Part shown: piece by piece, positions 59,366 to 62,021 of the stretch
How the letters are laid out: every line of letters begins with the position of its first letter
Numbering within the stretch: the stretch's first letter is position 1
NCBI GenBank assembly: GCA_001281695.1
Contig: LJIE01000001.1
Location: 2,937,521 to 3,001,520, forward strand
Length of the DNA: 64,000 nt
Source: a bacterium 336/3
GTDB taxonomy: Bacteria; Bacteroidota; Bacteroidia; Cytophagales; Thermonemataceae
Direction: 5' to 3'
Notes under the pieces: generated by a model
The model's database searches: none
Told to the model about the DNA's origin: nothing
The model's input: the letters and a program-made list of their open reading frames with translations, nothing else
Translations under genes and position numbers: made by a program

Positions 59366-59391
59366 ACTATCTCTTTTGAGATAGTTTTTTT
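59364..59391. terminator. Terminator hairpin between convergent genes
   Basis: AAACTATCTC / GAGATAGTTT with a TTTT loop and a T-run, overlapping both stop codons of the transglycosylase gene and the minus-strand lipoprotein gene. Confidence 0.75.
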
Positions 59392-59888
59392 ACTATTTTC
59401 ATAAAATCTAAGTTTGTACTACTTATTATTGTATCTCTAATTATTTTATTTTTTTGGAGTTGTAAGATTATAATTTCTTCATTAGCCACAATACCTCTTC
59501 CTTGTAAATAATATAAAATATAATGTCTATCTCCTTTAGCTAAGGCTATTAGCTGTCTATTAGGCAAATCGCCACTTATTGAACAAGTTAAATCTGCTTC
59601 CTCATCAGGATTTGCTATTTTCCAGCCTTTTTTAGAAAATGGGTCAGGATATTTCTCAGAAAGATATTGAATTACTGAGGCTGGGATATATTTCTTGTCA
59701 TGGTAAATACCATACTTTAAGGTTAATTCTTTGAGAGAATCTGCTTGTCTTTGCTGTTGAGCTAACTTTATTATTTCTTTAAAATTTTGATATGGAAGTA
59801 TCTCTACTCTTTGAGAATATACTGGCTCAGCATTATCATTACAAGAAACAAAACATGAAATAAACACGATAAAAAGTAAAACTTTCAT
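59367..59888 (-). CDS. Lipoprotein, function unknown (173 aa)
   Basis: 173 residues, lipoprotein signal with F-V-S-C lipobox (Cys16). The mature part contains a helix-rich N-terminal half (EIIKLAQQQRQADSLKEL) and a beta-rich C-terminal half with Y-I-L-Y-Y-L-Q-G-R-G-I-V-A-N-E. Not recognised. It sits downstream of the protease gene on the minus strand, with the protease terminator in between. Confidence 0.6.
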   Translation of the reverse strand: MKVLLFIVFISCFVSCNDNAEPVYSQRVEILPYQNFKEIIKLAQQQRQADSLKELTLKYGIYHDKKYIPASVIQYLSEKYPDPFSKKGWKIANPDEEADLTCSISGDLPNRQLIALAKGDRHYILYYLQGRGIVANEEIIILQLQKNKIIRDTIISSTNLDFMKIVKKLSQKR

Positions 59889-59982: not shown

Positions 59983-61086
59983 CTATTTTTTCTCTTTACC
60001 ATACACCTTCAGTTCAAAGATGTAGTTTTGGATAGCCTTGATTTGTTGAGGACGCTTCATGGTAAACAATCTACTCTGTTTTGGTAAAATAATTGGTTTT
60101 TCGGGTTTCTGATGAGCTTCCAAAGAATCTACAAGAGCTTTGATGTATTTTGCTTTGATGGCAAAAGCTGCTCCTTCTTGTTTGGTATGCTTTCTATTGA
60201 TGATACCCACCAAAAATCCTTTATCATCCAAAAGAGGTCCACCACTATTCCCTGGGTTTACAGGAATAGACACCTGATACTCCAAACTATCACCCTCAAA
60301 ACCTGTTCGAGAGGCTACTTCTCCTTTACCATACACCAAATCTTCACGAGGGTACGCCAATGTAAAAACTTCCTCGCCCAAATCTACTGGTTCATAACGA
60401 AACATATAAGGTAGAGGGTTGAAATTTGTAAACTTGTCGTCTGTAATCTGTAAAATCGCCAAATCTCGTTGCTCATCTTTATAAAATACAACTGCTTTAT
60501 ATCTTTGAACGGAATCTTGTTTTGCTTCTGCATAAATAGCTGTTGCATCTTTCACAGCATGATAGTTCGTCAATAAATAACCATTCTGAGAAATTACAAA
60601 AGCTGTTGCTGTATGGTCAACGACAGGCTCATCTTGTTTTTCATTTTGTTCTTCTAAAGAGCTTTGTCGTCTTTTTACAGCATCCAAGTCCTTTTTAAGC
60701 GACTGAAAGTAAGTTATCTGTTGACTTTCTAAGTTATTTAGGTTTCTGGCATTCCAAAGTACTCCAATTGCCGTAAGGATAGCCACAGAAGCCGCCACAG
60801 CCATTGTAGGGAAATGCTTTTTCCAAAAGGTCTGAACAATCGGATGTTTATAAAATACCCAAGCTTTGTGTTTTTCCAAATCTTTATGAAATACGTTCAT
60901 TTGAGCTTTCAAACGCTCACGTTCAGCATGTTGATTGAGTGTTTCTAAGAAAAAACGATGTTGTTCTACTTCTTCTGCAAAAAGAGGTTCTGTTTGCAAT
61001 TTTTCTTGAAACTGTTGCAACGAATCTCCTTCCAAATTACCTTTTAGGTAGCTTTCTATCCATTCGTATCGTTGTTGCAAATTCAT
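59983..61086 (-). CDS. Anti-sigma-like protein fused to trypsin-like (HtrA/S1C) protease
   Basis: 367 residues. Residues 1-80 are a cytoplasmic helical domain of the kind seen at the N-terminus of Bacteroidota anti-sigma factors (RYEWIESYLKGNLEGDSLQQFQEKL), but without a zinc motif. A membrane helix follows at ~93-111, then a coiled coil (~115-150) and a trypsin-like protease domain ~157-325 with His176 (TNYHAVKDA), Asp208 (RDLAILQI) and Ser281 (PVNPGNSGGPLL), a complete triad. No PDZ domain. The gene follows the sigma factor gene (50 nt apart, same strand), so the protein probably controls that sigma factor and senses periplasmic stress. Confidence 0.85.
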   Translation of the reverse strand: MNLQQRYEWIESYLKGNLEGDSLQQFQEKLQTEPLFAEEVEQHRFFLETLNQHAERERLKAQMNVFHKDLEKHKAWVFYKHPIVQTFWKKHFPTMAVAASVAILTAIGVLWNARNLNNLESQQITYFQSLKKDLDAVKRRQSSLEEQNEKQDEPVVDHTATAFVISQNGYLLTNYHAVKDATAIYAEAKQDSVQRYKAVVFYKDEQRDLAILQITDDKFTNFNPLPYMFRYEPVDLGEEVFTLAYPREDLVYGKGEVASRTGFEGDSLEYQVSIPVNPGNSGGPLLDDKGFLVGIINRKHTKQEGAAFAIKAKYIKALVDSLEAHQKPEKPIILPKQSRLFTMKRPQQIKAIQNYIFELKVYGKEKK

Positions 61087-61136
61087 GATAAGTTAAAGTT
61101 TTAAATGTTTAATATTATTACGTTGAATAATGAATT

Positions 61137-61742
61137 TTATTTATATTTCTCAAAAAACAACTTTTTAAGTCGCATTAAGCATTTGTATTTCTGATTCTTG
61201 GCATTATCAGCATTGGTATAACCCATTTTTTCAGATATATCTTGCATCGAAAGATTTTCGATATAGAAATCCTTGAGAAGTGTTCTACAAGGCTCTCCTA
61301 TAATATCCAAAGCTTGAGCCATTGCTCCATATTTATGTTCTCCATCCTCTGCATTAATTTCCTCTTCTTCAAAAGGAATAAAACTTTCAAAATCTTCTAT
61401 TTTGCCATAATAACGCCCTTTCTCTCTCAATCTCTTTAGCCAAAGCCTTCTACACACCGAATACACAAATGTTTTGATTTGGCATGTCAGCAAGAAATTC
61501 TCTTGCTTGAGTTTCTCATATAGTACCAAAATAGCCTCCTGATACAAATCTTTGGCATCTTGGTCTGTACCATTGTTTTGAATTATAAAATGTAAAATAG
61601 TTGGATAATGTTGTTTATAAACTATTTCCAATACTTTACTATCTCCCTGACGCAAACCTGCGATAATATCTGTTTCTGAATACTGCAAAGCCTGATGACT
61701 CATGAATGATTTAGGTGTATTTTGAAGCAGGAATTTAGCCAT
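61137..61742 (-). CDS. ECF-type RNA polymerase sigma factor
   Basis: 201 residues. Region 2 at ~35-105 (D-S-K-V-L-E-I-V-Y-K-Q-H-Y-P-T-I-L and D-A-K-D-L-Y-Q-E-A-I-L-V-L-Y-E-K-L, with TFVYSVCRRLWLKRLRE), and region 4 at ~140-198 (L-S-M-Q-D-I-S-E-K-M-G-Y-T-N-A-D-N-A-K-N-Q-K-Y-K-C-L-M-R-L-K). This is a small group 4 sigma-70. Start uncertain: ATG at 61742 or the ATG 13 codons further (61703). It precedes the membrane protease/anti-sigma gene on the same strand. Confidence 0.9.
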   Translation of the reverse strand: MAKFLLQNTPKSFMSHQALQYSETDIIAGLRQGDSKVLEIVYKQHYPTILHFIIQNNGTDQDAKDLYQEAILVLYEKLKQENFLLTCQIKTFVYSVCRRLWLKRLREKGRYYGKIEDFESFIPFEEEEINAEDGEHKYGAMAQALDIIGEPCRTLLKDFYIENLSMQDISEKMGYTNADNAKNQKYKCLMRLKKLFFEKYK

Positions 61743-62021
61743 TGCTTTTTAATATTCAAAATCCATATTACATAAAAGCAAGAATGCTTCTATTCATGTA
61801 ATTTTCCTTTGATACCATTTTCAAAAAAAAGTAACCCAAGTTCTCTTTGTCAAATTTTTATTTATTTTTTAAGATTCTGATTTTCATACTGTTCAATCTA
61901 AATTTTAAATAGTAATTGTTCATTGTTTTTACTATACATTGTTAAGTCTATGTTTAGCCAAAGTGTATCATTTTTAACTATTTCATAATTTTTCTTTCAT
62001 CATAAAGCAAAATTAAAAAAC

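Follow-up and report, generated by a model that had tools for sequence, protein, structure and literature searches.

A putative anti-sigma factor fused to an HtrA-like protease forms a two-gene module with an ECF sigma factor in Cytophagales and Sphingobacteriales

Why should the gene of an ECF sigma factor be followed by a gene that joins, in one chain, an anti-sigma-like head and a trypsin-like protease, and could the protease control the sigma factor? We examined such a pair in a window of 64,000 nucleotides (the whole stretch of DNA analysed here). Its features, all on the minus strand, are as follows.

61809..61837, minus strand: predicted sigma-dependent autoregulatory promoter, GGGTTAC-N15-GTATCAA (motif match; equal to G000:C1:2999329-2999357).
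61137..61742, minus strand: ECF sigma factor gene, 201 aa (open reading frame and profile matches).
59983..61086, minus strand: gene of the putative anti-sigma/HtrA-like protease fusion, 367 aa (open reading frame, profiles, AlphaFold2 model).
60865..61086, minus strand: cytoplasmic head, residues 1-74, most likely a zinc-less anti-sigma domain (profiles, models).
60751..60813, minus strand: transmembrane helix, about residues 92-112, limits set by eye (model, alignment).
60787..60798, minus strand: V97-A98-A99-S100 within the transmembrane helix, predicted site-2 cleavage site (between A99 and S100) and VAA degron.
60643..60750, minus strand: periplasmic coil, residues 113-148, with conserved L130, R/K132, K138 and Q141.
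60112..60615, minus strand: HtrA/DegS-like protease domain, residues 158-325, triad H176/D208/S281 (profiles, model).
60001..60066, minus strand: conserved C-terminal tail, residues 341-362, occupying the place of the PDZ domain in other HtrAs.

The product of 61137-61742 matches both the ECF profile (TIGR02937 sigma70-ECF, 4.7e-19, 68.6 bits against a cut-off of 42.9) and sigma region 2 (Sigma70_r2, 1.2e-6, 28.7 bits against a cut-off of 24), the two marks of an ECF sigma-70 factor; from the sigma alignment, its conserved start is probably an internal methionine at about 61703. The fusion gene follows on the same strand after 50 bases, so that an ECF-type sigma factor does stand beside the fusion gene, as a preliminary description of this locus had stated. 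The AlphaFold2 model of the fusion (58 sequences, mean pLDDT 88.3) gives the order of the chain as a helical head, one transmembrane helix, a coil, an HtrA/DegS-like protease and a conserved C-terminal tail, with no PDZ domain. The divergent neighbour of the operon is a metallophosphoesterase gene. Directly 3' of the fusion lies the gene of a 173-aa putative lipoprotein (59367-59888, minus strand), which we considered as a third operon member and rejected, no homologue being found among the open reading frames of the compared loci.

The sigma gene and the protease-bearing fusion are a recurring two-gene module. In a first set of 59 genomes (58 relatives and the genome itself), 26 carry the fusion, and the sigma gene is directly upstream on the same strand in all 26, with a gap of -50 to 173 bases; this count includes two loci with shortened heads (L020 and L025). 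Four weak loci of the 30 have the protease only, and their flanks, about 1.5 kb long, contain nothing that matches this sigma. A scan of named genomes, confined to the best 80 of 582 relatives of the query (the 582 not all necessarily being fusions) and partly overlapping the first set, covered Pontibacter, Hymenobacter, Rufibacter, Pedobacter, Mucilaginibacter, Raineya and other genera. Here the sigma gene is upstream in 79 of the 80 loci, the sole exception (L106) starting 114 bases from a contig end. Across a phylum sample of 296 genomes we found 26 matches at 1e-50, of which 21 run from head to tail (G035, with a shortened head, among them) and 5 cover the protease region only. When the two are matched up by eye from their coordinates, all 21 head-to-tail fusions adjoin a sigma gene. 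These 21 sigma genes also head the list of sigma matches (E ≤ 4.2e-66); the list then drops to 4.7e-52, and none of the weaker matches listed lies beside a fusion. We therefore rejected chance neighbourhood on linkage of 26/26, 79/80 and 21/21. The preliminary description had pointed to the order of head, membrane helix and protease next to sigma genes in relatives as a check, and to fusions scattered away from any sigma gene as evidence against its proposal: the order recurs and the linkage is near-complete. Module carriers comprise many Cytophagales and Sphingobacteriales, and 21 of the 296 genomes across the phylum sample. At one locus (L046:4474-4982) the sigma gene is split into two frames beside an intact fusion, by sequencing error or decay, and at another (L002:753-1301, minus strand) a second, related sigma open reading frame lies directly downstream of the fusion.

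The periplasmic part of the fusion matches Trypsin_2 over residues 160-295 (1.2e-23) as well as HtrA/Deg profiles; together with the model, this bears out the single chain of head, one membrane helix, coiled coil and trypsin-like protease described earlier. H176, D208 and S281, already reported as an intact triad, are kept in the alignment columns of 97/97 distinct sequences, the window's own included. The domain thus has the trypsin-like fold family and His/Asp/Ser triad of HtrA/Deg (S1C) proteases, and we rejected a pseudo-enzyme reading. In sequence it is closest, among solved structures, to DegQ- and DegP-like proteases, with DegS, HtrA1 and RsgI9 (7sjy) lower in the list; in structure HtrA1 and DegS rank best (Z 20.7 to 18.5 among the 50 matches listed), also with Foldseek. 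None of the four Pfam matches of the window protein is a PDZ domain. The tail in its place is modelled as a helix (345-353) and then a strand (356-362), with pLDDT 97 for residues 341-360, and is strongly conserved (Q348 in 97/97, R345 in 96/97, K360 in 94/97). The same genome has 5 HtrA protease matches, the fusion included. Elsewhere, four lipoprotein-like proteins (L123-L126) and a secreted one (L128) have the same protease and a similar tail with no anti-sigma head, and no sigma match was found in the stretches examined around them. Since such headless proteins exist, the fusion looks like an anti-sigma head and membrane helix joined to a pre-existing protease-tail module.

In the model, residues 82-148 form one continuous helix made up of the membrane segment and the coil. 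Leaving aside the protease and the tail, no segment is better conserved than the transmembrane helix (mean entropy, 58 sequences). Among the 97 distinct sequences, A98 and A99 are invariant, position 97 is V in 85, I in 10 and A in 2, and position 100 is S in 88, T in 8 and A in 1. Because these conserved residues are contiguous and not on one helix face, their conservation appears to suit a site of cleavage and a degron better than helix packing. In E. coli, RseA after the site-2 cut also ends in VAA. For the RsgI proteins of Clostridium thermocellum, one study reports that fragments with a VAA or IAA end are degraded by ClpXP and that RsgI2-NF-FAA, an XAA-ended RsgI fragment, is not (PMC12203970). 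The genome of the window encodes an M50 site-2 protease and ClpX, a finding of low discriminating value as both occur in all 14 control genomes. We consider it quite likely that a site-2 protease and ClpXP would finish the process at this VAA-S motif.

Overall, we lean towards a one-piece RseA-plus-DegS-like regulator of the adjacent ECF sigma, with a small predicted regulon. The fusion would be anchored in the membrane and act as anti-sigma factor to the product of the gene directly before it, with a zinc-less cytoplasmic head that holds the sigma and a periplasmic HtrA/DegS-like domain that is both sensor and trigger. Engaging an envelope-stress ligand would activate the protease, which would then cut either its own chain or that of an adjacent subunit of an oligomer, at the variable linker or the coil close to the membrane, and so do in one molecule the job of DegS on RseA. 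A site-2 protease would next cut the transmembrane helix between VAA and S, ClpXP would degrade the VAA-ended head, and the freed sigma would transcribe its own operon and a few small-lipoprotein genes from GGGTTAC-N15-GTATTAA promoters. The sequence itself shows the pair of genes and their domains, that the triad is intact, that a motif resembling a degron is conserved, and which genes stand behind a common promoter motif; sigma binding, self-cleavage, the order of the cuts and the signal we infer. Protease activity would then control sigma, as the preliminary description proposed. If this is true, no separate protein is needed for the site-1 cut that starts regulated intramembrane proteolysis, the enzyme being part of the inhibitor.

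The step on which this reading turns is the first cut. It is plausible, though finely balanced, that the fused protease makes this cut or gates it. Conservation of the triad throughout the family speaks for catalysis, but a quality-control or sensing role could conserve it too. Against self-triggering we count the variable linker, the missing PDZ domain for a DegS-type signal, and the other HtrAs of the genome, which could make the first cut. Hence the main competitor is that the protease domain is a sensor or effector only, binding or digesting misfolded envelope proteins, and that a separate HtrA makes the first cut. We regard this as less probable, yet a serious contender. It fits the separate HtrA proteins in the same genome and the lack of a conserved self-cleavage site: none was found, and linker 149-157 is the most variable segment (58 sequences). 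It also fits RsgI9, whose protease-like domain is described as polysaccharide-binding, autocleavage being ascribed to the RsgI periplasmic domain (PMC12203970). A mere binding module, however, would have no need of a triad intact in every sequence; an effector role explains the triad equally well.

RsgI9 of C. thermocellum is the nearest precedent that we found for joining a trypsin-like ectodomain to an anti-sigma protein. It too spans the membrane, and its ectodomain is of the S1C trypsin-like type (7sjy was found by sequence at 6.5e-8); its transmembrane XAA motif, recognised by ClpXP in a chimera (PMC12203970), can be set beside the VAAS of the fusion. The differences are substantial: in the same study the RsgI head is described as beta-barrel-like and binds SigI, and RsgI9 is an orphan whose protease-like domain is described as polysaccharide-binding (PMC12203970), whereas the fusion head is helical and its presumed partner is the adjacent ECF sigma. 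The triad count of 97/97 refers to the fusion family, and the triad of RsgI9 is outside it. We rejected membership of the RsgI family on the all-helical head model and on the match of the partner to the ECF profile.

The RseA/DegS/RseP system of E. coli and the MucA/AlgW system of Pseudomonas share with the fusion the plan of head and membrane helix, an HtrA protease, a cut in the membrane and ClpXP (PMC10202637, in part), and the protease domain matches the DegS and AlgW structures at Z of about 20. There, however, the anti-sigma factor and the site-1 protease are separate and DegS senses through its PDZ domain, whereas here both are in one chain, with the conserved tail in place of PDZ; membership of DegS itself was rejected (no PDZ, and TIGR02038 at 54.6 bits against a cut-off of 422.95). 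That DegS and RseP act in this proteolysis as two separate proteins is well documented (PMC10202637), and two reviews, in the sections examined, treat DegS as a separate protease or name no such fusion (PMC8103513, PMC7593790). Among the titles found in the open-licence literature, a body from which subscription journals are mostly absent, none concerned an anti-sigma/HtrA fusion or its regulon. Other ECF sigma/anti-sigma pairs of the phylum have the same gene order and head type with a non-protease ectodomain; one of them is encoded in the genome of the window, where the paralogous sigma G000:C1:2145453 (L111:1711-2975) stands with a gene of this kind, whose ectodomain matches no assigned family.

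The anti-sigma function of the head had been proposed from position and topology, and profile comparisons now lend it support. Helices span residues 3-14, 20-32 and 34-74 in the AlphaFold2 model of the fusion, and the head modelled alone is all-helical. Residues 1-75 contain no cysteine, which agrees with the earlier remark that the usual zinc motif is lacking and places the head outside the zinc anti-sigma (ZAS) heads with their HxxxCxxC motif. No Pfam family matched the head of the window fusion. At E ≤ 1, 41 of 58 homologues match the NCBIfam 'anti-sigma factor' NF052375 (best 7.2e-9), 12 a 'putative anti-sigmaE protein' profile (best 0.014) and 7, weakly, zf-HC2 (best 0.0063); such matches call for caution, as the unrelated endo_SpGH101 also catches 22/58 members at that threshold (best 4e-4), and the window protein's own NF052375 match (0.0017) is under the curated cut-off. 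After paralogous sigmas, 9 of 11 loci have a gene with such a head, a transmembrane helix and a different ectodomain; the other two (L115 and L116) have no gene with such a head there and were dropped. These nine heads, selected because they follow a paralogous sigma and because a head is present (the fusion profile flagged 8, and L118 was recognised by eye; L120-L121 are left out), align with our head profile at 98.1% probability and E 1.2e-13 (hhalign). Four of the nine bear cysteines, and the three of these that were scanned, which come from other classes, all match zf-HC2 above cut-off. We therefore think it most likely that the head belongs to the family of anti-sigma domains, as a member without zinc. 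By sequence and model it is a helical, homologous head beside a sigma gene, as in the helical anti-sigma domains of the RseA/MucA/RsiW type.

Structural comparison of the head adds a hint only. The head profile found no significant match among solved structures (best E 0.12), nor did Foldseek at E ≤ 0.001. The top VIA match of the head model, first of 9 aligned chains, is the MucA cytoplasmic domain (6in7_A; Z 4.8 over 54 residues, rmsd 2.9; Foldseek E 9.1), a Z value that is common among helical bundles and not significant by itself. In a covariation analysis of head and sigma (96 pairs, Neff 40), the head was not enriched over the protease, which cannot contact sigma; we take the absent signal as lack of power and not as evidence. 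We consider it very probable that the head holds the sigma. In one family (f11; L020:1528-2535 and L025:1525-2517) the fusion is without head helices 1-2 and retains the last head helix, the transmembrane helix, the protease, the promoter and the gene pair; the frame upstream of the shortened head holds stops and no recognisable head.

The homology of the head to anti-sigma heads also bears on a second alternative, in which the fusion is a membrane-tethered quality-control protease merely co-transcribed with sigma, its head an anchor or dimerisation element and not an anti-sigma domain. The headless protease-plus-tail proteins with no sigma match would suit it, but the position of the fusion after sigma is the one that head genes take after 9/11 paralogous sigmas, and the near-complete sigma linkage and the VAAS in the membrane helix further weigh against it, so that we hold it to be improbable. 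Least probable of all is a fusion needed for sigma activity, as a pro-sigma activator and not only an inhibitor: the shortened heads of L020 and L025, which retain the last head helix only, and the dual role of some FecR-like regulators as pro-sigma activators favour it, but no FecR family is among the Pfam matches of the window protein and its overall plan is that of RseA/MucA.

Which genes would the freed sigma serve? The consensus of the promoters before the sigma genes is GGGTTAC-N15-GTATTAA. We found GGTTAC-N13..18-GTAT[TC]A within about 160 bases upstream of sigma at 89 of 105 loci (0.015 expected from shuffles), a set in which some genomes are counted twice and many are close relatives; the spacer is 15 in 79 of the 89 and 16 in 10. 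In 77 distinct copies of GGTTAC-N15-GTAT, a G precedes in 70, and T, A and A follow in 73, 75 and 75, respectively. We infer that this sigma uses the shared motif. The looser GGTTAC-N15-GTAT is too loose for a genome scan, with 6 sites in the window's own genome versus 12 in the reversed control, and a stricter pattern was therefore used. Strict GGGTTAC-N15-GTATNAA has 87 sites in 43 module-bearing genomes (reversed control, 5). In 43 genomes lacking the module, of which 33 belong to the order and 10 to the class, it has 3 sites and its reversed control 6. It is present in 32 of the 43 module genomes and absent from 11, including one of the same genus. Because sigma promoters, in part from these very genomes, served to define the motif, the real test lies in the sites before other genes.

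We looked downstream of 80 of the 87 strict sites, the other seven being just before sigma genes by position. Behind the 80 are 42 small lipoprotein genes (45-130 aa, hydrophobic start, lipobox Cys), 11 sigma genes, 4 sites inside open reading frames and 23 others; among 799 gene starts remote from the motif, 21 are those of small lipoproteins. Of the 23, six precede DUF4349-like lipoproteins, assigned by Pfam for L132 and by eye for the other five; four precede small AMPK1_CBM-like proteins, of which one was confirmed; two, in sister genomes, precede a larger lipoprotein judged by eye to be VWA-like; one is a sigma promoter cut by the end of its stretch (L189); and ten are in no class. These counts are not independent, the genomes being related. 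One family (f24; L137, L176, L179 and L181) has a sigma-type promoter before a small AMPK1_CBM/CBM48-like protein, as judged by Pfam on L181 alone. Two of the three strict sites in module-less genomes were examined (L205 and L206), and neither is before a small lipoprotein. Among the named loci, 74 of 79 have the sigma promoter by a looser pattern, and 59 of 79 have a divergent motif copy within 2 kb upstream (shuffles, 0.0 loci). A small lipoprotein gene follows this divergent copy in 59/59; of the 60 cases listed, 58 have the gene 34-48 bases after the motif. In the window's own genome, two strict sites are before small lipoproteins (C1:2357532 and 2358276), and others before a DUF4349 lipoprotein (2151388) and the sigma operon; none of the three non-sigma sites adjoins the operon of the window.

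The predicted regulon is hence small, made up mostly of small lipoproteins or the sigma itself, and its richness in lipoproteins points to an envelope signal. A sharp promoter motif and a very small predicted regulon make this a compact, testable envelope-stress circuit, and the module suggests a regulator for many small lipoproteins. A bolder version, which we put forward only tentatively, is a single-chain envelope-stress switch in which the anti-sigma factor cleaves itself as its own site-1 protease once its HtrA domain, which has no PDZ, is engaged, and the small lipoproteins, often encoded divergently, are a built-in third component, either protective envelope fillers or a ligand or substrate in feedback on the protease. 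A flavobacterial promoter map, in the part available, gives a CGT-type ECF motif (PMC9723704), and the promoter and regulon described here were not met in the open-licence literature searched. The C-terminal tail, the VAAS motif, the promoter and the lipoprotein targets are additions to the preliminary description. The small lipoproteins themselves (L031-L110 and the window's own genome) are of low complexity, some with heptad-like AAAKVDS repeats.
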